DNA from: Bolinopsis microptera
Taxonomy: Eukaryota > Ctenophora > Tentaculata > Lobata > Bolinopsidae
NCBI RefSeq assembly: GCF_026151205.1
Contig: NC_087084.1
Span: 11,497,453 to 11,561,452, forward strand
Reading direction: 5' to 3'
DNA length: 64,000 bases
Below, one piece after another: positions 20,576 through 58,980 of the stretch. Numbering within the stretch: position 1 is the first letter of the stretch; every line of letters begins with the position of its first letter. The position numbers and the translations under genes are program-made. The notes beneath the pieces were generated by a model. That model was not told the DNA's origin and did not search any database. It worked only from the letters and a program-made list of their open reading frames with translations.

Positions 20576-21853
20576 CTATGTTCTTTGTGATTTACGTAAT
20601 CCAGGTAGGTTGTGGAGTAAAAATGGTGGCCATTCGTCGTTGCAGCCAGCACTTTGCAAGTCTAGTAGTACTTTTTTTGACGAATTCTTATATATGTTGA
20701 TAGAAAATATACTGGATGGGCATGTAATGCGAGTGTTATGCTCTGAAATAGCGAGCATTGGGCCTTTATAAAAGATGCTAGATCTCAGGTCAGTCTGTGA
20801 GTAAATTGATAACCAGTCTAAGTTTTGTTCGTGTGTCGTTCCTTGTTTGGGTGTGTTAGGAGGGAAAAGTTCTGAAATCGATTTAGGTAACAAACTAGAC
20901 ATATTTCGAATTTTGTGCAGTAAAATAAGTGCGTTTTTAACGATAACCCCTTGAACGGTTAAGACCTCGTGTTCTTTAAATGCTAGTTTTGTGTGCTCTG
21001 GCAGTTTTCCGTCCTTGTAGTAGTAGTTCACATTTCCGGCCATAACTGCCCTCATACCTTGTTTTTGTTTAGCAAAAAGAGATTCTATAAGAGATTTTGA
21101 AGCAAATCCCCAGACAAGTGAGCAGAAGTTTAAATGGGACTGAACAAAACTTTGGAAAATCTGTAAACGGGCCTTCATTGGCAATTTATGTTTTATCCTG
21201 TACATCACCCCAATAAATCTTGACATCTTGCTCCTCAGTGCTTTTATGTGGCTACTCCAGTTAAGCTTTTCATCTACAATTACACCAAGAAACCGGGCTT
21301 CAGTTTTACGTTCTAATACTGTATTTTCTATTTGTACTTTAATCAATGATGGTTCTATGCGCTTTTTCGAGAAAATCATATAACACGTCTTTTTTAGATT
21401 TAGTGCTAATCCGTTGCTATTAACCCACCGTGATAATGTTTCCGTTAGTTGGTTGACCCTTAGCATTAGTTCTTGGACATTGGAACCGTTAATAATGATA
21501 TTTGCATCGTCTGCATAAAGTATGAATTTTACCATCATGTTAGAAATACCGGGAAGATTGTTGATGTATATGACGAAAAGTAAGGGACCTAGTATGCTCC
21601 CTTGTGGAACACCATGCACGATAGGCTTGTGGGACGAATGTGAATTGTTTATTGCTACATATTGGCTTCTATCACTTAGGTATGACTCAAACCACTTTAG
21701 AGCTATTCCCCGGATGCCGTAGTGCTGTAATTTATTTAGCAGTGTAGCATGATCCAGGACGTCAAACGCTTTACTGTAATCTAATAATAGCAGTAGTGAA
21801 ATTTGGTTTTTGCTAAGAGAGTGTAAAATTGTACTTTGTGCATTATAAAACAT
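20576..21853 (-). mobile_element. 5'-truncated jockey/CR1-like LINE, RT domain intact to C-terminus
   Basis: One open frame of 425 residues covers the palm and thumb of a non-LTR reverse transcriptase. It has LDYSKAFDVLDH (~26-37), GVPQGSILGPLLFVIYINNL (~81-100) and the catalytic ILYADDANIII (~111-121). A long C-terminal region follows, with FLGVIVDEKLNWSSHI and the terminal FSINIYKNSSKKVLLDLQ. The endonuclease and the first RT blocks are missing upstream of ~21853, so it cannot act alone. The frame is undamaged, implying recent insertion. It differs from the LINE at 50.6-56.5 kb, whose catalytic box reads WADD. Confidence 0.88.
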
Positions 21854-46699: not shown

Positions 46700-47690
46700 T
46701 TGGTTTATTGAAGCTGATAAGGAACTCATTGATTTAGATTAGGGTAGACTGAATTTTTAAATATATTTCCATTTACATTTTTTTTCTTTCGTACATTTTG
46801 GTACAAAACAAGAGCTTTTTTAGAGTAACAAAAGCATTACCATTCTACAAAAGCATTCAAATTCCACAGCAGAAATATTCACTCATAATGCTCACAATAA
46901 AAAGTTGAAAACTCAAATTAATTTTACATTATGAATTAATTAATTTCTCATACAAGATACTAGATACAAGGCTAGGTCACTCCCGGTGTTGGGATGGCCT
47001 GAGGTGCTTATCTCCTTTTCATTAACCTTAAGCCACTCTGTGCCAAGGCACTATATTAGTATACTAGCTGTAATTTCTCATACTATATAATATTAAGATC
47101 TTAAACATGACTAACCGAGCTTACAACGTGGATTATTCTAGTAGTGAACTGACTGTACAAAAACACAAAAATACAATTTTCATGTAAACATCAGTATGTT
47201 TGTTTGTAAAGTTTACACTGCAAAACACCAACAACCTGTGGTGTACACAAATAGTACATACCTTGACCACAAAGATACAGTCTACTTAGTGGTTACACGT
47301 ACATTACAATACCGCACATGTTATCGCTAAACTTTTTACTTTTTACTGGTATACTTTATAAAGTAAAAACTTATAAATAAGTTTATGTTAGATAATAATA
47401 TTCATCCATTTTGGACATGTCTTGGACGCGTCTTGTTGAGACTTGTTGATGCTATTGTTGATGTTATAACTTTATAAGACTTAATTGATTTTGTCTTTTT
47501 ACATTGTTATCATTGGATTGTAACAACCACTATCGTGCTACAAGACCGTGAATTAATTAGTTATTTGTGATAGGCGTTCAATTGTTCTTTTAATTAATGA
47601 AAGCCCATTCATTAAGCAGTACAAAATCTCTAAGTACATGAGACTTTAATAACACTTAGCAGTGATGCAATTGCCTGACCATCTCCAAAA
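46700..47690. other. Non-coding stretch upstream of the adaptor exon
   Basis: No further exon with correct phase was found, though the 46684 exon begins with one leftover base and so needs at least one upstream exon. The sequence is AT-rich with no visible inverted-repeat element. Confidence 0.4.
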
Positions 47691-47692
47691 CA

Positions 47693-48393
47693 AAAGAGCT
47701 AGTATCTCTGTCTCCACCTACAACACACAAGAGCCAGTATCTCTGTCACAACACACAAGAGCCAGTATCTCTGTCACAACACACAAGAGCCAGTATCTCT
47801 GTCTCCACCTACAACACACAAGAGCCAGTATCTCTGTCACAACACACAAGAGCCAGTATCTCTGTCTCCACCTACAACACACAAGAGCCAGTATCTCTGT
47901 CACAACACACAAGAGCCAGTATCTCTGTCTCCACCTACAACACACAAGAGCCAGTATCTCTGTCACAACACACAAGAGCCAGTATCTATGTCTTCACCTA
48001 CAACACACAAGAGCCAGTATCTCTGTCTCCACCTACAACACACAAGAGCCAGTATCTCTGTCACAACAAACAAGAGCCAGTATCTCTGTCTCCACCTACA
48101 ACACACAAGAGCCAGTATCTCTGTCACAACACACAAGAGCCAGTATCTCTGTCTCCACCTACAACACACAAGAGCCAGTATCTCTGTCACAACACACAAG
48201 AGCCAGTATCTCTGTCTCCACCTACAACACACAAGAGCCAGTATCTCTGTCTCCACCTACAACACACAAGAGCCAGTATCTCTGTCACAACACACAAGAG
48301 CCAGTATCTCTGTCACAACACACAAGAGCCAGTATCTCTGTCACAACACACAAGAGCCAGTATCTCTGTCTCCACCTACAACACACAAGAGGC
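47693..48393. repeat. Minisatellite of alternating 28- and 35-bp units
   Basis: All units share ACACAAGAGCCAGTATCTCT and then end either GTCACAAC (28 bp) or GTCTCCACCTACAAC (35 bp). The two forms often alternate, making a 63-bp higher-order unit. 63 is divisible by 3, so a 21-residue repeat (ASISVTTHKSQYLCLHLQHTR-like) runs open for about 250 codons, and other frames on both strands are open too. I treat this as a repeat and not a gene, because no flanking coding sequence or start context supports translation. Confidence 0.92.
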
Positions 48394-48429
48394 CACTATA
48401 ATATCTACCCGCCAGACCTCACACTGTAA

Positions 48430-50540
48430 CATATCTTACACGCAGTTTTAATATGCATGTAGCAGGTTAATCTTACACACTGGAAGTGCAGGGTGATATT
48501 TGTGCTTTATATTTAGTGTAGAGTGATGAACAGAGGGTGTGTGGGGTCAATATTGTGGTCTTCTGTGAGTGGACGTTACAAGGTCACGTGGGTTTATCAT
48601 AAGGTCACGTGGGGTTATTATGATATCGTGATTGGACAGTTAGGCGACTACAAGACTATTATTTTAGTAGTTGTCTACACGGAGATTGACTGCACACACA
48701 CAGCAAAATACTCTTAAATTACGCACGATCCTGACAAAATGACTTGAGATGAAAATACACACAGAAATAGTCCTGATGTAGTCCAAGAAGTGAAATTATC
48801 AATTACCCTGACGTTGGACCGGAGGATTACTGTCCATTAAAGATGACAACATCCTTCTAATGGTTGGAGTAATTACTTTAATGACGACAGTGTTTTAATG
48901 ACTGTGGTAATTACTTTAATGGCTAAACGTGTGTTTTACAATGCAGTTTACTAATGTAATATGACATAATCTCCTGAGCTGTGCTCCTCTGTTATTACAG
49001 CAAAACATAGACAAACTTTGCCAGTTTGTATAATTTATTTTAATCATGATATTATTAAATATTCATTATTTATTATCATATAGTTTAAGGTTTACTCAAA
49101 CTGTTAAAGTCACGGTACAAAATCTATCTAATATTTCCCTAAATTAGATAATCCAAGCAAGTACACGCTTTGTAAAGTGCACACGTGACGCGATGTACTT
49201 TAACTCCAGCCTGAATATTAAGTTTCTCAAAGCTTTATTTCACAGTATAAAACTATTCTCTAAAAACAGGTAGTGCCCACGTGTTTACCACGTGTTTACC
49301 ACGTGTTCACCTTACATACCAGCAGCAGTACTAGTGTTATTATCCCATGTTCGTTTACAATACAGTGCTTTACAACCTCTGAACAATTGTTACATCAATA
49401 GTCCAATACTCATCCCAGTGTGGGTTGGTTAATGAAGGAACAATACGTTTAAATATAGTACAATAAGATTACTCGAGTAAGTAAATTAATGTACAATGAG
49501 ATTACTGCTAAGTGAATTAATGTACGCATTGTATATTAATTACTACCCTTACTAGTAATTAGTATACAACCTGGATTATAATTAGTGATGTGTTGTGCGA
49601 GGTTTCATGATGAGAGGAAATCTATAGCGACACTCTTATTATAGGTACAGTACAGAACAGGTACTGCAGTGTATACTCATAACATTTACTAATGTATACA
49701 ATACAGCTTTGATATAAGGTCTATACTGTAGGTTTATCAAAGCTTTGCTAAAAGAATTCAATTAAGCTTTGCTATCTAAGTATACAATATTCATGACATC
49801 TATCTAAGGTATACAATACCGGTTTACTATTAAGTTATACTTACATTTATTGAGGATGTACCATGGAAGTCTAGAGTACCCGCAACAAGAAATGCAGCTG
49901 TAAACGACTTGGTAACGGGGTGCATGTGAGCTCTGGGGGCCAGTGGCATCAGAAGACTGGCTATCAGCCTTGGAAATAAGATGAGTTCTTTAGATTCATG
50001 TCACATCTGCACTGCATCTCCATCACAATGACACAAACACTCTCTCCTTCACTACCCTACCCTACCCTAGCCTAGCCCTACCCCTCCCTCCTTTTACCTG
50101 TTGCGGGTACTCTGGACTGCATGGACATCCTTGAATAGAGGTATTTATATAGTAGTGTTGTGGTATTATACTGTGTACATGTATATATATTCTATCCTAT
50201 ATATATCAATATATTCTATATCTATATTATATACTGTATATTTTATATACAAACTTTTCCTTACCCCCGCCTCCCCTTCCTCTACAAATTGTACTCAAAT
50301 CCCACACCCAACCTGCTATTGACTTACTAAATAACCTCTATATCTCTACATTGGGCCATAGCAGTCCTCCCCGCTCCCTTCCCCTCCCTCCCCTATTTCA
50401 CCAAGCACCAACATCTCTCCAATTCACATCATAAACTTTCATGTAATTAGATCTTGTGTTCCTTTTTTTATTTTATTTTGAAAATGATTTTGTTTAACTT
50501 TACCTCTTTACCTGATATCACTCACCCCTGTCAAAACTGT
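48430..50540. other. Intergenic DNA upstream of the LINE
   Basis: Mostly non-coding. It contains several CACGTG sites (48583, 48604, 49185, and three in a row at 49279-49306) and an inverted repeat pair at 49848-49885 and 50101-50136. A C-rich stretch (CCCTACCCTACCCTAGCC) lies near 50060. Part of the last 400 bases may be the LINE 5' UTR, but no boundary is visible. Confidence 0.4.
49845..49985 (-). other. Possible orphan exon, inverted partner at 50101-50136
   Basis: On the minus strand an open stretch reads LIASLLMPLAPRAHMHPVTK, then SFTAAFLVAGTLDFHG, ending at a consensus donor (AAT|GTAAGT). The bases for VAGTLD recur on the plus strand at 50101-50136 (TTGCGGGTACTCT(G/A)GACT), where they hit a stop soon after. 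The exon phase does not fit a direct join to the adaptor exon at 46684, so its gene is unknown. Confidence 0.3.
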
Positions 50541-50631
50541 GTTACTCTCATTATCTTATTTTCAGGCTGTTGGTTGGTTTGATGGTGCCCTGGCCCCCAT
50601 CTCATTATGTGCTCCCTACCATCTATTCTTC

Positions 50632-51717
50632 ATGCAAGACAGAACTCTTACTGAAGATAATTCTCGATCAACGAGATCGAGAAACAACTCCTCTCCCCTG
50701 GATGGAAATGTTATTGACTTTACGAAACCTATCACCATCACAACGCCCGGATGCTATGTGCTTAGCAATCCTGACTCTGGTTGTAGAATCAGTCTCTTTC
50801 AGGATGTGTTTGCAAGCCAACTGTGTGACCAATTTTCCTCTGAAATCGAAAATACTGGCACCCTTAAACAGTACAACTCAATCCATAGGCAGTCTCAGGC
50901 GCCACTTCCAAGACTCTCGTCATGGTTTGGACCCGTAGACTATGCGTTCTCAGGAATCGTAATGAAAGCTAATTCTGTCTCCCAATGTCCTCGCCTTATT
51001 GCAGCATATCAGAACATGGCCGAAAACCTCTTCACACCCAACAACATTGATTGCTCCTCTGACTGCTTTTTGATCAACCAGTATAGGACTGGACGTGATT
51101 CCTGTGGTGAGCACAGTGACAATGAGCCAGAGGTCGACCTCTCAAAACCTGTCGTTACTCTGTCACTTGGCCAACAGCGCTGCATGCTCATCAGAGAGGC
51201 TAAGAACCCTGGAAATGCCATCACAGTCCAACTCGACCAGGGTTCAGTTCTTGTAATGCATGGTACTGATTTCCAAAAGAAGTATACGCACCAAATACCC
51301 AAAGATAATGTGATCACTAATTCACGTACCTCTGTGACCTACAGGACCTGCAGCTCCACTTTCCTAAGAAACCGAAGTGCCCTATCTACACCCCTGAAAG
51401 AGATATCTATCACTCCTATACTTGCCCCCAAGACCCCTGGAGTCTCAGGCTCACCATCGCTACCTCTGCACAACAGACGTAGATCCTCCTTGTCTCTGTC
51501 TAGCTTCTCACAAGTTGACACCAGCTCAGTTGGGTCTCCAGTGGCCAGTAGTTCTCCTTCCATAACCAGCAGCAAAACATCAGTCTCTGATAGTGATACA
51601 TTGCCTCTCAGCATAGAAGCCATGCTTGAAGCCATTGATCTAATGAAAGACAAAACCTGTGAAAAGCGAACTTTCTCGCCATGGCAGCACAAACTCTGGA
51701 ACCCCTCTGGATTGTAA
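50632..51717 (+). CDS. LINE ORF1, N-terminal part: AlkB-like 2OG-Fe(II) dioxygenase
   Basis: The first in-frame ATG is at 50632 (361 residues), though the frame is open from 50539. The core matches AlkB/ALKBH2-3-type enzymes. Counting from 50539, it has PRLSSWFGP and YAFSG (residues 124-139, the substrate-lid region), then the iron site in NQYRTGRDSCGEHSD (His192, Asp194; the HSD codons are at 51112-51120). Next are VVTLSLG, a strand pair with DQGSVLVMHGTD, the distal His251 (TH) and the RTSVTYR box (Arg263 and Arg269) that binds 2-oxoglutarate. All signature residues are present. AlkB enzymes oxidatively remove alkyl groups from DNA or RNA bases; in a LINE this could repair or demethylate the element RNA or cDNA (inference). 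A Ser/Thr-rich tail follows. A splice-acceptor-like TTATTTTCAG sits at 50556-50565. Confidence 0.87.
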   Translation: MQDRTLTEDNSRSTRSRNNSSPLDGNVIDFTKPITITTPGCYVLSNPDSGCRISLFQDVFASQLCDQFSSEIENTGTLKQYNSIHRQSQAPLPRLSSWFGPVDYAFSGIVMKANSVSQCPRLIAAYQNMAENLFTPNNIDCSSDCFLINQYRTGRDSCGEHSDNEPEVDLSKPVVTLSLGQQRCMLIREAKNPGNAITVQLDQGSVLVMHGTDFQKKYTHQIPKDNVITNSRTSVTYRTCSSTFLRNRSALSTPLKEISITPILAPKTPGVSGSPSLPLHNRRRSSLSLSSFSQVDTSSVGSPVASSSPSITSSKTSVSDSDTLPLSIEAMLEAIDLMKDKTCEKRTFSPWQHKLWNPSGL

Positions 51718-52204
51718 GAAAAGACTGAAGAAAGTTGCGAAAGCATGTCACAAACGCCTGAGCACGCTTCTTGTTGAGCCTCCAGTAGTCTCAGCTGAGC
51801 CCGAATGCGTTACCCATTCCCTCCAAACTTTGGAAAACTCTGTTATTGATCTACAATCCAAAATAAGTCTACAACATAGCACCCTCCAAACACTTGTCTT
51901 ATGTTCTGACAGTAATTCCAATCAAAAAGGTAGTGTCAGCCCCCCTAACCTGTCTAATGAACTCAACACTATGGACAAGAGACTTGAAAAGTTAGAGGAT
52001 ATAATGAGCAGCATAAACGAAAAACAACATGAAACTGCTACCTCCCTTAAAGCCTTCGAAGCAGATGTCACTGCAATTAAGAACAAAGTAGATGACTCTA
52101 AGGCCTGCCTACAGTCTCTCCAGCTTAATGACCGCACCACCCCATCCAGAAAAAAGGCCATCGCCTCATCCTCAAAACCAGAACCACCCAACCCACAGCC
52201 CTAG
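51659..52204 (+). CDS. LINE ORF1, middle part: basic segment and coiled coil
   Basis: This frame (+1 relative to the AlkB segment, overlapping it by 59 bases) begins with GTG and has no ATG until MDKRLEKLEDIM, roughly 100 codons in, so it is unlikely to start on its own. It opens with a basic stretch (CKKRLKKVAKACHKRL). Heptad-like helices follow (LQTLENSVIDLQSKISL; LNTMDKRLEKLEDIMSSI; LKAFEADVTAIKNKVD), as in the multimerising ORF1 proteins of LINEs, and then a Pro/Ser linker to a double TAG (52202-52207). It is best read as the continuation of ORF1 after a frameshift or an indel. Confidence 0.75.
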   Translation: MKSELSRHGSTNSGTPLDCKKRLKKVAKACHKRLSTLLVEPPVVSAEPECVTHSLQTLENSVIDLQSKISLQHSTLQTLVLCSDSNSNQKGSVSPPNLSNELNTMDKRLEKLEDIMSSINEKQHETATSLKAFEADVTAIKNKVDDSKACLQSLQLNDRTTPSRKKAIASSSKPEPPNPQP

Positions 52205-52820
52205 TAGACAATCGCGAAAACCAAAAAAGGTTCTACTCCTACATGACTCCCAGATGAACAACTTTCTACCTGAGTCATTTTCCTCTGGGTTCAAGGTGGA
52301 AAAAATGAAAGTAGGCTCTTATACTGACATGATAAAAGACCACTGTATGAGAGATGTCATTAAACAGCCAGAGGTCGACTGTTACATTCTCCAGCTTGGA
52401 GTCAATGACTACAGATACAGAACCTGCTCTGTTAATAAAGCGATTGAGGATGCAAAATCAGTCATCGATAAACTCCTCTCGAGCTCCAGTGCAAAGGTTG
52501 TCATCTCCCTACCCACCCCAACCCCTGGATTAATCAGTGATCTTACCAACCAATTTGTCTCAGAAATAACCCAATTTGTCTCAGCTAAAAGAGGGTTAAG
52601 TGACTTTTACCGCCGCCTATATACTGTAAACAATACTGGAAACTTTTCCCGTGCCATCTCTGCTGCTGAGTCATCCCAAGACTCTCCTAACCCGTTGAAG
52701 GAGGACCAACTTCATGTCTCAGAGTATGGTTTGAAAAAACTTTGTTTGAATATTAAACTTGGCCTATACCGTGCCTTTGGTATGAGATCCCATAGAAAGC
52801 AGCCCCCTACAGAGCGTTAG
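52092..52820 (+). CDS. LINE ORF1, C-terminal part: SGNH/GDSL-type hydrolase
   Basis: Frame +1 relative to the coiled-coil segment, overlapping it by 113 bases. After a Pro/Ser linker the SGNH fold is recognisable. Block I is KVLLLHDSQM (residues 46-55, Ser53 as nucleophile; His replaces the usual Gly of GDS). Block III is LQLGVNDYR (~101-108, with the Gly-x-Asn-Asp motif). Block V is DQLHVSEYG (205-213, with Asp205 and His208 as the DxxH dyad). Esterase domains of this fold are known in CR1-type LINE ORF1 proteins and may act on membranes or acyl esters. The product is basic and has no signal peptide. The ATG at 52092 lies in the overlap, so independent initiation is possible, but fusion to the upstream coiled coil is more natural. 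Confidence 0.8.
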   Translation: MTLRPAYSLSSLMTAPPHPEKRPSPHPQNQNHPTHSPSRQSRKPKKVLLLHDSQMNNFLPESFSSGFKVEKMKVGSYTDMIKDHCMRDVIKQPEVDCYILQLGVNDYRYRTCSVNKAIEDAKSVIDKLLSSSSAKVVISLPTPTPGLISDLTNQFVSEITQFVSAKRGLSDFYRRLYTVNNTGNFSRAISAAESSQDSPNPLKEDQLHVSEYGLKKLCLNIKLGLYRAFGMRSHRKQPPTER

Positions 52821-52872
52821 ATTAACCCTAAAATTCAAGAAAAAACAAGTATCACGAGATCAAGTCGCTGTG

Positions 52873-55800
52873 ATGTCCTGGAACATCCAGGACAGCACAG
52901 GAGACGGGTCTAACAAATTTGAAAATAGCGAATTTTTGTCAATCCTCAAACAAGCTAACATTCTTTGTCTTCAAGAAACAAAGAAGCAAGTTAAGATTGA
53001 AGGATACCTCTCTTTTAATAGCAACCGCAAAAATTCACGCTCAGGAGGGGTCTGCATTCTTGCTGAAAATGACCTAAGAAAAGGTGTCTCTAGTGTGCTT
53101 TGTAATGAATCTGATGACATTATTGTTGTTAAACTGGACAAGAACTTTTTTAAACTTGATTTTGACCTATTTTTGGTATGTTATTATATTAGCCCTGCAT
53201 ACTCGTCCTATGTCAAGAAGAATCCAGATTATACTGCTAATACCTTCTCTGCTCTTGACTCTATCTGTATCAGACTACGTCAAAAGGGAGAAGTTATTAT
53301 GTGTGGCGATGCAAATGCAAGAACTGGAAAACTCCCAGACTATATCCTTTCCTGTAATGCACCTGCCATCCATGACATCTATAACGACATTGGACTCGAG
53401 CACGACATAGAAGAACCAAGAAACAATTCTGACCTTACAATATCTGAACCCCACTGCCAACACTTCCTTGACATGGTTATCAATAACCAACTCAAAATTC
53501 TTAATGGTCGTACCCTTGGGGACACCACTGGAAAAATGACCTGTCACAAATACAATGGAAGCAGTGTGGTTGACTATTTTGTAATCACCTCATGGGCAAG
53601 AGATCATGTAAACTCTCTCCAAGTAAAAGAGTTTACATCATACTCTGATCATTGTCCATTAGTCTTGAAACTCACTACATTTGAACCATTTGTCGCAAAC
53701 TTCCAGCTCCCAGACTTTTCTAACTTTCCTTGTGGCTATAAGTGGGACAGCAACACCTCCCATTCACTATTTAAAAAAGCCCTTACCTCGCCCGAAATTA
53801 TCAACAATCTGGAAAGCATTGTGACAAATGAATTTAGCAGTACTCTGGAGGCCGAGGGCAATCACGAACTGAACGATGCAGTCATAAAATGTCTCCACAG
53901 TGCTGCTGATATAGCCTTAAAAGTGAAAAAGCCTCCCAAAAATTCTGCCCGTAAAAAATGGTTCGACCCACAAGTCAACTCCTCGCGGCGGAACCTTAAT
54001 AGGCTAGCAAATCGGCTTGGTAGTAAGCACTGTAACAGTATCCTCAGACTAGAATACTTTAAGCAACGCAACAAGCATAGCAATTTTGTAAACAGTAAGA
54101 AAGTAGCTTTCCTTAAGAAGTTAAATGAAGCTATAGAAGAAGGTCACATACTCGACTGGAAAAAATTTAAACGGCTTAAACAAGAACATGACACTAGCCC
54201 CTTACTTGACAAATTTGATTTAGCTAGCTTCCATGACTTCTTTGCATCCCTTTATAAAAAACCAGACCAGGAGCCAGATCTCACTCACCACAATCACAAA
54301 CATTACCCTGAACCACCAGATCTGGATATCCTAAATAAGCTCATGTCAGAATCTGAAGTGACCTCTGCCATCAAAAATCTCAAAAAAGGTAAAAGTTGCT
54401 CAAACGACTTGATATCCAACGAGATGCTTCAGAGCGTAACTCCGCTTTGTCTCAAAGCCATCCTCAAAAACTTCAACCACTCACTGGTCTCCGGTTACTA
54501 TCCATGGCACACCAGCATCATTACTCCTATTTACAAGTCTGGCAACCCTTTCAGCCCGGACAACTACAGAGCAATAGCTGTTGGTAGCTGTATGGGTAAA
54601 CTGTTTTCTAGCATCTTACTTGAGCGTCTCCTGCACTTCAAAAAGCTCTACTGCCCTGACCCAAAAGAACAACTAGGGTTCTCGAAGGGTGCTCAAACAA
54701 ATGACCACGTTTTTACCCTTAAGACAGTCATTGACAAATATACCAAGGTTAAGAAAGCTCGTCTCTATGCATGCTTTGTTGATCTAAGAAAGGCCTTTGA
54801 CACTGTATGTAGGGACCTCCTTCTGCACAAAATCACATGCCTTGGAATAACTGGAAACTTCTTCAATTGCCTAAGTGATATGTATAGAAACTCAATAGCT
54901 CATATAAAAATCTCCAAACTCTTGTCCCCTAATATTGACATTGGAAAAGGAACAGAGCAGGGACACCCTCTATCACCGGACCTTTTTAAAATCTATATCA
55001 ACGACTTGTCATCTCTCCTGAAATCTGTTGGTGATTATCCTATTCTAGCTGACGTCCTAATATCACATCTGCTCTGGGCTGACGATCTTGTCCTACTTGC
55101 CCTAAGTCCCAAGGCCTTGCAAGACAATATAAACATCCTATTCGACTTCTGTAACTCTATGGGCCTTGAAGTAAACATTAAAAAAACCAAGATTCTCATA
55201 TTCTGCCCTCCTAAAAGAAAACAATCCTATGAAACATTCATTTTGGGAGGCCAGCCCATCCAACACACCGACAAATACTGCTATCTTGGCATTATATTCC
55301 ACAGAAATGGATCTTTTACAGCAGCAAATACTGAACTGAGGGCGAAGGCTCTCCGTGCTCTCTATGGCCTCAAAGGCAATATCGTCAAAGATGCCCTCTC
55401 TCACCGTTCTCTGAACATTCTATTTGACTCTCTAATAAAACCGATACTGCTCTATGGCTGCCAAATCTTATGTCCTCACTCAAAAACCATGAGATACCTC
55501 TCCAAAACAGATAGCAAAGCCAACCCCCAGCATACTCTCAGGTACATCTCACAAGACCACTATGAAAGATTCCACCTTAAGTTTATCAAGTGGTCCTTGT
55601 CTGTCCATTCAAAAGCATCAAATATAGGCTGCTGGGGCGAAAGTGGGCGCCACCCCCTCTTCTTTGAAGCCTGCAAACTTGCAATAGATTTCTATACTCG
55701 CCTTGAAAGCACTGAAAATGAACTTCTCTCCGCTGCATTTCACGAGCAGATTATGCTGGGCCTTCCTTGGTACACCAACATCTCTAATCTTCTCACCAAA

Positions 55801-56367
55801 TATAACTTCCCCCACTCATCCTCTTCAAAATCCAAGCTCTCTACCCAAATCAGTCACAACATGAGGGAAGAATTTGTGGATACCTGGAAATCTGCCAAGG
55901 CATCCTCACCTAAATTAGAATTCTACAATCAAATTAAACATGATTTTGAACCAGAAACATACTTAGGAGTGGTTAAGATCCCCGATGCTCGGAAAAGCTT
56001 AACAAGGTTTCGTATTAGCTGCCACAATCTTTACATTGAGAGGGGCCGTTACGAAACCCCCCTAGTACCAAGAGAACATCGATGGTGCACTTTTTGCTTC
56101 TTCAGCAAGGGGCTTAAGCCTATTGAGGACGAAATTCATGTTCTAACAGACTGTTTACTCTACTCCTCAGTTAGAGAAAAATTTAACTTCCATCCCAAAA
56201 ATATTACTGACCTAGCCGGTTTGCTATCCGATAAAACACTAGACCCTACAAAATTTACTGCCACAGCAAGAGCAATCCATTCAATTCTCTCTGTGAACGA
56301 AAATTTTACAGCCTACTATAAGAGCCCAGATTTCCACTCAAATACTGGCCAATGCATAATGCTATAG
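52873..56367 (+). CDS. LINE ORF2: APE endonuclease and reverse transcriptase
   Basis: Intact 1,164-residue ORF2 from the ATG at 52873 (the preceding GTG extends it by one codon). The APE-type endonuclease occupies residues ~1-260, with MSWNIQ, the catalytic-Glu motif CLQETKK, and SDHCPLVL at its end. The reverse transcriptase spans ~490-790: TSIITPIYKSGNP, DNYRAIAV, CFVDLRKAFDTV, GTEQGHPLSPDLFKIYINDL and the catalytic LLWADDLVLLALS (WADD in place of YADD), then KKTKILIF. Near the C-terminus a CTFC...HVLTDC motif (~1072-1094) forms a CCHC-type knuckle. It nicks target DNA and primes reverse transcription there. Spacing from the SGNH segment is 52 bases. No lesion was found. Confidence 0.95.
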   Translation: MSWNIQDSTGDGSNKFENSEFLSILKQANILCLQETKKQVKIEGYLSFNSNRKNSRSGGVCILAENDLRKGVSSVLCNESDDIIVVKLDKNFFKLDFDLFLVCYYISPAYSSYVKKNPDYTANTFSALDSICIRLRQKGEVIMCGDANARTGKLPDYILSCNAPAIHDIYNDIGLEHDIEEPRNNSDLTISEPHCQHFLDMVINNQLKILNGRTLGDTTGKMTCHKYNGSSVVDYFVITSWARDHVNSLQVKEFTSYSDHCPLVLKLTTFEPFVANFQLPDFSNFPCGYKWDSNTSHSLFKKALTSPEIINNLESIVTNEFSSTLEAEGNHELNDAVIKCLHSAADIALKVKKPPKNSARKKWFDPQVNSSRRNLNRLANRLGSKHCNSILRLEYFKQRNKHSNFVNSKKVAFLKKLNEAIEEGHILDWKKFKRLKQEHDTSPLLDKFDLASFHDFFASLYKKPDQEPDLTHHNHKHYPEPPDLDILNKLMSESEVTSAIKNLKKGKSCSNDLISNEMLQSVTPLCLKAILKNFNHSLVSGYYPWHTSIITPIYKSGNPFSPDNYRAIAVGSCMGKLFSSILLERLLHFKKLYCPDPKEQLGFSKGAQTNDHVFTLKTVIDKYTKVKKARLYACFVDLRKAFDTVCRDLLLHKITCLGITGNFFNCLSDMYRNSIAHIKISKLLSPNIDIGKGTEQGHPLSPDLFKIYINDLSSLLKSVGDYPILADVLISHLLWADDLVLLALSPKALQDNINILFDFCNSMGLEVNIKKTKILIFCPPKRKQSYETFILGGQPIQHTDKYCYLGIIFHRNGSFTAANTELRAKALRALYGLKGNIVKDALSHRSLNILFDSLIKPILLYGCQILCPHSKTMRYLSKTDSKANPQHTLRYISQDHYERFHLKFIKWSLSVHSKASNIGCWGESGRHPLFFEACKLAIDFYTRLESTENELLSAAFHEQIMLGLPWYTNISNLLTKYNFPHSSSSKSKLSTQISHNMREEFVDTWKSAKASSPKLEFYNQIKHDFEPETYLGVVKIPDARKSLTRFRISCHNLYIERGRYETPLVPREHRWCTFCFFSKGLKPIEDEIHVLTDCLLYSSVREKFNFHPKNITDLAGLLSDKTLDPTKFTATARAIHSILSVNENFTAYYKSPDFHSNTGQCIML

Positions 56368-56500
56368 GACCTCAAAAATAGTATTATATTAAACATTTCT
56401 ATTTTATCCCTACACATCTGTAAATAACTAGAATTGTGTAACCTTAAATTATTTTGAAGAATTATAACTATTGTGAATTCAATAAAATAATTATCACTTT

Positions 56501-56532
56501 TGTATCCTTGTATCCTTGTATCCTTGTATCCT
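56501..56532 (+). repeat. 3'-terminal 8-bp repeats of the LINE
   Basis: Four exact copies of TGTATCCT end the element, about 130 bases after the ORF2 stop and just downstream of AATAAA. Short octamer tails of this sort are used as the 3' recognition end in CR1-type LINEs. Confidence 0.9.
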
Positions 56533-56539
56533 ACTCATT

Positions 56540-58980
56540 AGATTTACTAAAAGTATACACTACAGGTTTGTTAAATGAATAAACGTTATGTTAACGTAAA
56601 TTACTTACATAAAGTTTACTTAATTCATATTGTAAGTAAGGATTACATAAGTTACACAAGTAAGGTTTACTTATCCCTTGAGATTTGAACTCACGAAACT
56701 CAAAGCTGGGAAACTATTATTACTTTCACTTGTCACTGTTATGGTTTACTAATAACAGATAACTTAAGTTATTCTGTTAGGCAGCACTTCTTCGTGTAAG
56801 TGATAGTTCTCGGTGGTTAAATCCTTAGAGAGAGTTATTCCGGATTCCCGTATAGTACCTTAACCCCTCACTAGTCACTATTAGTCGCTTGGTTGCGGCG
56901 GAGTCTAACAAGTGATTAGGTGAGCGGGCGGGCCGCAGCACTCTTGTTGTCGGAACCTATGATCTACAGTTACAACTATCTGTTTGGTCTACTGAGAAAC
57001 CTATTTGGTAGATCCATTGGCACTCAACAACTATGATGACGAAGTATCTTACTGTCCTGCATTGTCAAAGTTCTTTGAAATGATAGTTCAACATGGTTTT
57101 ATTCAGTACCATATAAATAGCAGGGTTGGGAATCATACCATCTTCTTCATGTGATATGTGCATTGTGATTATGCCAATGTCTAATTCTAAAGGCCTTGCA
57201 AGACGTAGTCGCCTAGTCGGTAGTACATTCCAACCATGAGGTACGTTACCTTCACCTAATCCTCTAAAGCCCTAAGTAGTAAGTACCCAAAGTACCCTAA
57301 CTATCTTTTGTACACGAACTTGACACGGTACACAATATAATAGTCCTTATCAACTGTATGTAATTAGACTAATCACCTACATTGGTCGACTAAGTACCTT
57401 GCTTTTGTATAGGAACAAGCTGGACACCAATTCTATCTGACAACACTGTAATCCCCCTGAGTCCCACATCATCACATCAACACAATACCAAATAACAGTG
57501 TGTTAACCACGTGTTCATCACGTGATAAACACGTGCTAATCACGTCTGATGACAGTTAATATAGTGTATCACGATGTAGACTTTGCACATCTACATTTCA
57601 TAGCTTGTACATACTTAATATTTAATCTATCCGCACAATCATACTTTTGTTTCTTTTTTTATATGGACATACTTTTGTTCCTTCACTGTAAACAATGGCA
57701 CGAAAGGCAAAGCGTGACATTTTGTCTGCCGGTACAATCTCGGAAGCTGTTAAAGTTGCGAGTTTTTCCTTCAGAACATTCTAAACACAGTGAACACGTG
57801 ACTAAACACGTGACTCTGTGATGAACTGAGCTGTAACAATGGAGGAGATAAAACAATGGAGCACGGTGCTCTCAAAATGTGAGACATTTTAAAAATAAGC
57901 GCGGCAATATTTGAGGCGTTCAGTGTTCTCGTTTTGAGCTCATCATACTAAGATTAGAGATTGATTAATGAGACAAAAGTATGTCTTGAGGTCGACACAC
58001 GTGCACGTGAATTGTAGATGCATTATACCCATTATATAATGACCAATACTTCGACATGAGTCTGATCATTTCTCCTCAAACTATAATCTACCAGTAGAGC
58101 TGATGAACCAGCAACAAAAGTAGTTGCTTTTTATCTCTTGCTCTCTTCATTCTAGAAGTTAACTGGAGAACAAGATAAACTCTCATTTTGTTGCTGAAAA
58201 TTCGACTCACCGTATTCTTGTGAATTAACAGCGAACTTGGTCGACTGCCAATTAAAGTTACAGAAGTAGCAGTGAATTGTAACAAGTTTCAATATACTTT
58301 TAACTTTACGCCGCTTTTGACACCTTCATGGATTTATATGGGCCTTACAGCGATCTTATAGATATATTTTACTCAGAGATCTCAATTGATGACATAGAAG
58401 TACATTTTTCGATCAATTTAACAAAATGAAAGAATATAAACTAGGTGGTCTCAGCAGTGAGTAGTGAGTAGTCAACCCACGATAACTATGAGATATACAG
58501 TTGTGGTTTACAGTGAGGAATATCTCCCAGGGGATTTGGAACGTGCGGAATGCGGAGAGTTGTGGCAAGGAGGAAACTATTTGCCAAGCTGGATATTTTA
58601 GTAATTTCTGCCAAATACTTGCTGTACTATTAACAGGATTCACAAACATTAAATACAGTAATTAATACTGTATCAATAACTTATTATTTCAATCATTATA
58701 GCTGGAAGTTCAGATTCAGAGCACACGCAAATATAATAATATGTAAATGAGCACTCGAAGTATTCTAACACTACAGCAAGATAAACACACTATTAGAATT
58801 GAAAACTCCTCCTTGTGATAGCTAACCATGACCAAGTGGACTCCAGATAGAGCCTAGCTGGTCAGCCTCTAAAACAGAGCCTGCACGATAGAGCGTGCAT
58901 AAGAGATGTTCACACAGCTAGTTCCAGCAAACTCCTCACTCAAAAGCTCAAAGAGATACCCACACTCCAGCAAACTCCTC
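56540..58980. other. Intergenic DNA, CACGTG-rich
   Basis: No exon was recognised. CACGTG clusters occur at about 57512-57536 (three), 57797-57812 (two) and 57999-58011 (two overlapping in CACACGTGCACGTG). These could be bHLH sites; no gene start is visible nearby. Confidence 0.4.

Follow-up and report, generated by a model that had tools for sequence, protein, structure and literature searches.

What would a retrotransposon gain from an AlkB dioxygenase in the protein of its first open reading frame (ORF1)? The question is raised by a long interspersed nuclear element (LINE), of a family termed F1 here, that lies in a 64,000-nucleotide stretch of the genome of the ctenophore Bolinopsis microptera (contig NC_087084.1, positions 11,497,453 to 11,561,452; this whole stretch is called the window below). 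Beyond L1, little is understood about the ORF1 proteins of LINEs. The gag-like ORF1 of F1 bears a second recognisable enzyme, with a defined chemistry, whose conservation is no less strict than that of the remainder of ORF1. For F1 we computed the AlkB domain, its predicted fold, its ORF1 position in many copies, an intact active site and purifying selection. The kept active site suggests that nucleic acid required for copying the element is cleaned or unmarked by the element itself. The F1 ORF1 protein (ORF1p) fuses an ALKBH3-like 2-oxoglutarate (2OG)- and Fe(II)-dependent dioxygenase to a coiled coil and an SGNH hydrolase, and we favor the reading that an active AlkB would strip N-methyl groups of the N1-methyladenosine (m1A) and 3-methylcytidine (m3C) type from element RNA. 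Judged from sequence, we hold this reading to be about evenly poised between right and wrong.

AlkB in the F1 ORF1 protein

A first-pass annotation of the window had claimed the signature residues of AlkB for the frame at 50632-51717. The Pfam profile PF13532 (2OG-FeII_Oxy_2) matched this 361-aa frame over profile positions 15-194 of 194 (E=7.3e-22) with 79 bits, over the cut-off of 31.2, and all seven residues checked were present: N180, Y182, H192, D194, H251, R263 and R269, numbered in the 392-aa frame that begins at GTG 50539. The coding features are as follows; the residue roles are those known for the AlkB family.

50632..51717, +: ORF1 in frame 1, comprising the N-terminal tail, AlkB and the Ser-rich linker, open from GTG 50539, with its last residues out of register with relatives
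50815..51345, +: AlkB domain, residues 62-238 of the 361-aa frame, from the PF13532 match
51076..51084, +: N180-x-Y182, read in the window; presumably the 2OG-binding pair
51112..51120, +: H192-x-D194 (H192 51112-51114, D194 51118-51120), read and aligned; taken to be iron ligands
51289..51291, +: H251, read and aligned; presumed distal iron ligand
51325..51345, +: R263 (51325-51327) ... R269 (51343-51345), read and aligned; assumed to be the 2OG and substrate arginines
51659..52204, +: helical and coiled-coil stretch of ORF1, in frame 2, from the P0009 alignment and the helices in the P0009 model
52227..52817, +: SGNH/GDSL hydrolase of ORF1, in frame 3, with S, G, N and H present, from the P0009 alignment, motif and P0009 fold
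52870..56367, +: ORF2, 1165 aa, open; apurinic-type endonuclease (APE) and reverse transcriptase (RT), from Pfam matches to Exo_endo_phos_2 (E=2.8e-8) and RVT_1 (E=9.3e-28)

The best database match outside the window was a Bolinopsis microptera protein, 98% identical over 65% of the query. By both sequence and fold, the nearest solved structures to the F1 AlkB were those of ALKBH3, whose chains were 24-28% identical to it in the fold comparison. The likeness to the repair dioxygenases ALKBH3 and ALKBH2 extends to the fold, the HxD...H motif, the arginine pair and a PRLxAWYG...YxYS stretch; unlike these enzymes, the LINE AlkB is part of a transposon protein.

The order within ORF1 is AlkB, Ser-rich linker, helical/coiled-coil region and SGNH. 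The 762-aa protein P0009 aligned to three successive frames of the window at 89-95% identity (residues 1-376 to frame 1, 373-548 to frame 2 and 541-762 to frame 3), which places breaks in ORF1 at ~51650 and between 52152 and 52198. By this alignment, the three-frame layout is an accident of the window copy, whose ORF1 is broken while its AlkB domain and ORF2 are still open. AlkB as a separate, additional ORF was ruled out, as the frame breaks of this copy explain the layout. The annotation had placed an AlkB frame ahead of SGNH; the two in fact belong to one ORF1 protein, with AlkB as its N-terminal domain. The SGNH open frame spans 52092-52820, and its match to the Pfam GDSL lipase was weak (0.018); the SGNH tetrad of Type IV (esterase) ORF1s is present.

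A profile search returned 35 proteins including the window's own, 21 of which, at 675-781 aa, hold AlkB, the helical region and SGNH in one frame. Two others are short cellular-type AlkBs (P0036, P0037), and seven lack an AlkB annotation, six of them (P0008, P0030, P0032, P0033, P0034 and P0038) starting within or behind the AlkB part. ORF1 proteins from named organisms were P0010 and the shorter P0002 from Bolinopsis microptera and P0012 and P0024 from Mnemiopsis leidyi. In the public gene sets of ctenophores, these four LINE ORF1s are annotated as ordinary uncharacterised or hypothetical host proteins (P0002, LOC134820655; P0010, LOC134811101; P0012, ACHWQZ_G009106; P0024, ACHWQZ_G008545). 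No relatives in viral contigs were confirmed with the F1 profile or a profile of six other ORF1s. The window ORF1 equivalent of P0009 residues 358-405, where the linker gives way to the coiled coil, forms a conserved helical patch that looks SAP-like by eye, with no Pfam support.

The AlkB domain recurs in 17 F1 insertions, the window's and 16 others (L002-L017). Eleven of the 17, the window included, have a matching ORF2 directly downstream on the same strand, and none was found for the other six among the ORF2 matches listed. The Bolinopsis genome holds two subfamilies, whose members share 97-99% and 81-83% identity with the protein of the window; one partial copy stands at 93%. Their divergence is uneven: 89-92% identity in the 5' module (DNA), 81-83% in frame 1 of ORF1 and 92-93% in ORF2 (protein), a pattern that may reflect recombination.

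The F1 AlkB is under strong purifying selection, and its active site is intact. Between the subfamilies, AlkB had a nonsynonymous rate (dN) of 0.061 and a synonymous rate (dS) of 1.066, giving an approximate ratio of 0.057 (0.053-0.067), compared with 0.129 for SGNH, 0.235 for the linker with coiled coil and 0.251 for the N-terminal tail (20 pairs). These Nei-Gojobori values come from 24 pairs of full-length frames (L003-L007 and L009 against L010-L013), a set that omits the window, L002, L008 and L014-L017. Broken-frame copies were excluded because their out-of-register tails inflate the linker ratio (0.88 within subfamily A, where AlkB stood at 0.289). Within subfamily B the ratios were 0.083 for AlkB, 0.108 for SGNH and 0.252 for the linker with coiled coil. 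Across the 21 full-length ORF1s, mean pairwise identity was 59.3% for AlkB, 59.4% for SGNH, 37.1% for the coiled coil and 28.0% and 15.4% for the linkers, with 48 of 216 AlkB positions invariant.

None of the Fe(II) and 2OG residues varies among 26 aligned F1 sequences, window included. HxD...H is kept in 40 of 42 distinct mobile copies from several families, and both arginines as well in 39; the copies that depart from this are the fragments L017 and L025 and L035, which is truncated where the retrieved stretch stops. This count covers frames of at least 100 aa matching AlkB at E<=1e-8 in L001-L057 (48 rows, minus three host genes and three second views), with degenerate or partial loci that have no such frame (e.g. 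L018, L021-L024, L026) outside it. The annotation had proposed that the intact active site reflects selection, which these data bear out, and had left room for a one-off capture of a host exon. Such a functionless chance capture in one copy could draw on the ALKBH2- and ALKBH3-like genes of the host genome, but it was ruled out by copy number and selection: with at least 17 insertions, 21 full-length ORF1 database proteins, a dN/dS of 0.057 and several LINE families bearing the domain, its probability is negligible.

Other AlkB-bearing LINEs, a Helitron and host genes

The annotation's placement of AlkB in a LINE ORF1 stands for F1, but AlkB is not restricted to that family: further LINE families and a Helitron carry it. 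A Pfam search of the genome gave 151 AlkB matches, three of which are stand-alone genes; among the matches listed, all were over the cut-off and one contained stops. Most lie in frames of 370-880 aa and some in frames of 1000-3400 aa (by eye). The families below and the Helitron are known from the representatives read.

F2 (L031, L033, L036): AlkB+SGNH ORF1, then APE-RT ORF2, broken or shortened in L031 and L033
F2b (L037): AlkB+SGNH ORF1, then APE-RT ORF2
F3 (L041): AlkB+SGNH ORF1, then APE-RT ORF2
F4 (L042): AlkB+SGNH ORF1, then APE-RT ORF2
F5 (L043): AlkB+SGNH ORF1, then APE-RT ORF2 in two frames
F6 (L044): AlkB+SGNH ORF1, then APE-RT ORF2
F7 (L047): AlkB+SGNH ORF1, then APE-RT ORF2 reaching the end of the retrieved stretch
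F8 (L048): AlkB+SGNH ORF1, then APE-RT ORF2

In F2-F8 a coiled coil or PHD-like finger precedes AlkB and SGNH, whereas in F1 AlkB comes first. The SGNH part of F4 and F5 had no Pfam match at E<=0.05 and was assigned by motif alignment. Below the Pfam cut-off, PHD-like fingers were seen in ORF1 of L042, L043, L044 and L048 (PF00628, E 1e-4 to 7e-3), and ORF2 of L043 and L048 opens with such a finger too. For F3, with 79 of 815 candidates scored, we found at least 23 full-length copies that are 96-100% identical, all but one free of stops. At least 16 further copies, none with a stop, are at 63-66%, and a single copy at 84% holds ten stops. Between two F3 subfamilies AlkB had a dN/dS of 0.093, a comparison in which dS is saturated for SGNH and the N-terminus; between close sub-subfamilies it was 0.168, on few changes.

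ORF2 identities separate F1 (24-32% to the rest) from F2, F2b and F3 (49-53%) and from F4, F5, F6 and F8 (40-58%), to which F7 is 29-37% identical. The RT tree recovered F2/F2b/F3 (99/99) and F4-F8 (99/99), paired F4 with F5 (91/89), placed F1 on a long branch and left the order of F2, F2b and F3 unsettled. In the AlkB tree F4 and F5 (82/87) and F2 and F2b (99/98) paired, with F3, F6, F7 and F8 lacking resolution. The two trees are in no conflict, which fits, without proving, a single acquisition before the F2-F8 split followed by vertical descent. The F1 AlkB grouped with those of F2-F8 and the Helitron on long branches (93/94). The F1 AlkB may or may not stem from a second capture. In topology tests, grouping F1 with the ALKBH3s had p-AU 0.19 and was not rejected, and F1 with L040 had p 0.21; uniting all LINE AlkBs without the Helitron gave p 0.042, and the F2-F8 LINE AlkBs without it p 0.22.

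The Helitron-type element L038 (G000:C10:16873000-16881500) has a giant frame that opens with SGNH and continues with AlkB (E=5e-21) and Helitron_like_N (E=3.5e-22); it also matches DUF6570. A close relative, L049 (G000:C12:2464500-2472500), has SGNH then AlkB (E=3.2e-22), and its retrieved stretch stops before the Helitron domain. The Helitron AlkB falls among those of F2-F8 (99/97, ten-row clade). The stand-alone host genes are L039 (ALKBH2-like, 234 aa), L045 (ALKBH3-like, 505 aa) and L040 (288 aa), the first two labelled from motifs and tree. L040 (G000:C5:22266000-22268200) reads WFGPVDYAYS, close to the LINE's WFGPVDYAFSG, and stands beside L045 in the tree (88/90); it is a host gene, or possibly a donor or derivative.

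The Helitron bears on what the domain acts on. Helitrons have no RNA template step, and a DNA substrate would give the AlkB of both element classes one function. Such an enzyme would repair or unmark the cDNA or target DNA, by ALKBH2/3-type repair or removal of N6-methyladenine (6mA), and might for example keep a new copy unsilenced. The ALKBH3 structures are likewise on single-stranded DNA, and mice lacking Alkbh1 had more N6-mA and more silencing marks on their young L1 elements (PMC4982230). However, the host has its own stand-alone L039 and L045, so the element's copy would have to do more, for example by acting in cis, and we consider a DNA-directed role rather unlikely. That the host already owns an AlkB of the element's type suggests more generally that the element's enzyme acts in cis or has a special substrate.

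ORF1 proteins are chiefly regarded as binders of nucleic acid, and the AlkB fold could serve as a gag-like RNA- or DNA-binding module with no catalysis. The N of NxY is T or S in the read copies of F3, F4, F5 and F7 (L041, L042, L043 and L047), as this idea would allow. Set against the unvarying Fe(II) and 2OG residues of the 26 aligned F1 sequences and the HxD...H kept in 40 of 42 mobile copies, binding alone seems very improbable.

Proposed function and known systems

On our favored reading, removal of m1A/m3C-type groups, AlkB would be catalytically active and, being within ORF1p, would sit on the element's own RNA in the ribonucleoprotein particle. It would remove N-methyl groups of this kind from that RNA, perhaps also from first-strand cDNA, and the cleared template would keep the element's RT from being halted during target-primed reverse transcription. 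An ORF1p that coats element RNA and delivers a clean template to ORF2 would explain the fusion to ORF1, the likeness to ALKBH3 and the strict conservation. A clean RNA template leaves the Helitron unexplained, where a DNA substrate would be needed. ALKBH3 acts on RNA and single-stranded DNA, and a similarly broad single-strand specificity would cover both LINEs and the Helitron. Both m1A and m3C impede common RTs, and AlkB treatment removes both, as excerpts of PMC12140624 describe. This bench use lets RTs pass m1A and m3C; the elements may have found the same solution.

Several points weigh against this function. Within subfamily A the AlkB ratio of 0.173 exceeded that of SGNH (0.092; linker with coiled coil 0.242), on few changes (for AlkB, 40 synonymous and 25 nonsynonymous summed over 15 pairs), and the between-subfamily ratios are approximate because AlkB dS there is near 1. 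Judged by eye, the alignment shows that the LINE has not kept the ALKBH3 residues ahead of PRLxAWYG. P0035 (464 aa), an F1 ORF1 relative with coiled coil and SGNH, has another N-terminus and no AlkB match, so some elements may manage without AlkB. In the F2-F8 and Helitron representatives the first ~40-56 of 194 Pfam AlkB positions were unmatched; we take this part of the model to be the nucleotide lid, which may therefore differ in them. In PMC12140624, most 3' tRNA halves were captured better after AlkB treatment, but capture of intact tRNAs changed only modestly. Lastly, the substrate cannot be read from sequence, and the assayed transposon AlkB, from a Ty3/Gypsy element of the orchid Phalaenopsis, removes N6-methyladenosine (m6A) in vitro (PMC9289625, as far as its available text goes).

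This makes m6A removal, as in the orchid element, the main rival. AlkB would strip regulatory m6A or another host mark from element RNA and so avert destruction or silencing by host readers; the introduction of PMC9289625 also states that m6A lowers endogenous retrovirus mRNA in mouse embryonic stem cells. Yet the m6A eraser ALKBH5 is reported to suppress mammalian L1 (PMC7873242, in part), and we judge epitranscriptomic evasion improbable for F1. The two elements share an acquired AlkB gene in a retrotransposon. The orchid element, in the part of PMC9289625 at hand, has long terminal repeats (LTRs) and an AlkB in an additional ORF described near m6A RNA demethylases; the ctenophore element is a LINE with AlkB fused into ORF1 alongside SGNH and nearest to ALKBH3. 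These differences in element class, AlkB placement and nearest AlkB point to independent acquisition. Recurrence in LINEs, a Helitron and an orchid LTR element, the last presumably by independent acquisition, hints at a pressure of a general kind. The defined chemistry of the ORF1 enzyme opens a long-standing question to simple assays: is retrotransposition limited by chemical marks on the RNA template or by damage to it, and do elements counter these?

Kapitonov and Jurka are said to have described, in 2003, the Type IV (esterase) ORF1 of CR1/L2/RTEX LINEs. The ctenophore elements share with this type, exemplified by ZfL2-1, an ORF1 with coiled coil and SGNH before an APE-RT ORF2 (PMC3905857 and PMC4120745, seen in part), and an ORF1 profile of F2b, F3, F4, F5, F6 and F8 matched the SGNH half of the ZfL2-1 ORF1p esterase (PDB 4c1b) at E=2.4e-9; 4c1b was not among the best 60 of 64 matches of the F1 profile (E<=1). 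In contrast, the main text of these two papers, as consulted, mentions no AlkB or dioxygenase. Table 1 of PMC4120745, in the part seen, gives RRM, CCHC, PHD, coiled coil, transposase-22, zinc finger/leucine zipper and esterase as ORF1 domains and no dioxygenase, and the esterase type is confined there to two vertebrate subgroups within the sample. Plant RNA viruses also hold AlkB inside a replicating element's protein, with RNA repair proposed (excerpts of PMC2714080, compared by description only), but they lack reverse transcription. SGNH hydrolases occur across unrelated element classes, in a platyfish Helitron (PMC4021074) and bdelloid LTR elements (PMC5408684), and the latter paper does not mention AlkB. 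We recognised no report of an AlkB-bearing LINE in the literature searched, which did not include bioRxiv or most subscription journals, and the nearest was the orchid element; an unpublished or database-only description may exist. What is new is an ORF1 architecture with AlkB within LINEs, AlkB cargo being already known from one LTR lineage.

More speculatively, the ctenophore AlkB+SGNH pair, found in at least three deep LINE groups, in two domain orders and in a Helitron, could be a standard mobile-element module and a self-encoded eraser, AlkB removing N-methyl marks or lesions and SGNH an acyl-type mark from the element's own nucleic acid. We regard this as doubtful; if true, the parasite would bring its own kit for cleaning templates and removing marks.

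The insertion and its class

The remaining features delimit the insertion.

49850..56532, +: whole F1 insertion, 6683 bp, from 5' end to 3' repeat tail, by start of homology and tail repeat
49850..50170, +: untranslated module at the 5' end, bearing a long inverted repeat whose arms cover 49868-49892 / 50094-50118 and extend further
56500..56532, +: 3' tail, an 8-bp tandem repeat, (TTGTATCC) x 4.1

Homology begins exactly at 49850 in 10 of 12 other copies compared and later in two. No clear target-site duplication was seen at the insertion by eye. With APE and RT in one ORF2 and no LTRs, the element is an APE-type LINE; ORF2 has at least 41 genome matches, at least 19 of them full length and at least 16 of these stop-free, lower bounds that reflect the 40 of 6183 candidates scored. 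The longest direct repeat among those listed for 49600-57000 is 38 nt. An AlkB-bearing Ty3/Gypsy identity was rejected, as LTRs, gag-pol and long direct repeats are lacking and ORF2 is APE-RT. The 8-bp 3' tail, of a kind typical of CR1, and the ORF1 type point toward a possible placement in CR1/L2 (Jockey superfamily).

The 5' module has 24 near-full-length genome places, including L058-L068 (17 at 89-100% identity, seven at 80-82%). Three of the latter seven sit just upstream of AlkB frames, and the one read is L048 (F8), whose ORF2 is only ~27% identical to that of the window; the 5' end of F1 and F8 would thus be shared or swapped. By eye, no compensating changes were noticed in the stem, and the F8 version retains most of the sequence and breaks some pairs. 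Neither the whole window nor eight loci gave an Rfam match to a known RNA family or ribozyme at gathering score, and two sub-threshold matches in 49600-50800 were taken as chance.

Elsewhere in the window, 21218-21787 (-) holds a second, distant RT fragment, 26% identical to ORF2, and 47662-48429 (+) is a 255-aa open frame of tandem repeats (SISVTTHKSQYLC...) that is probably no gene.
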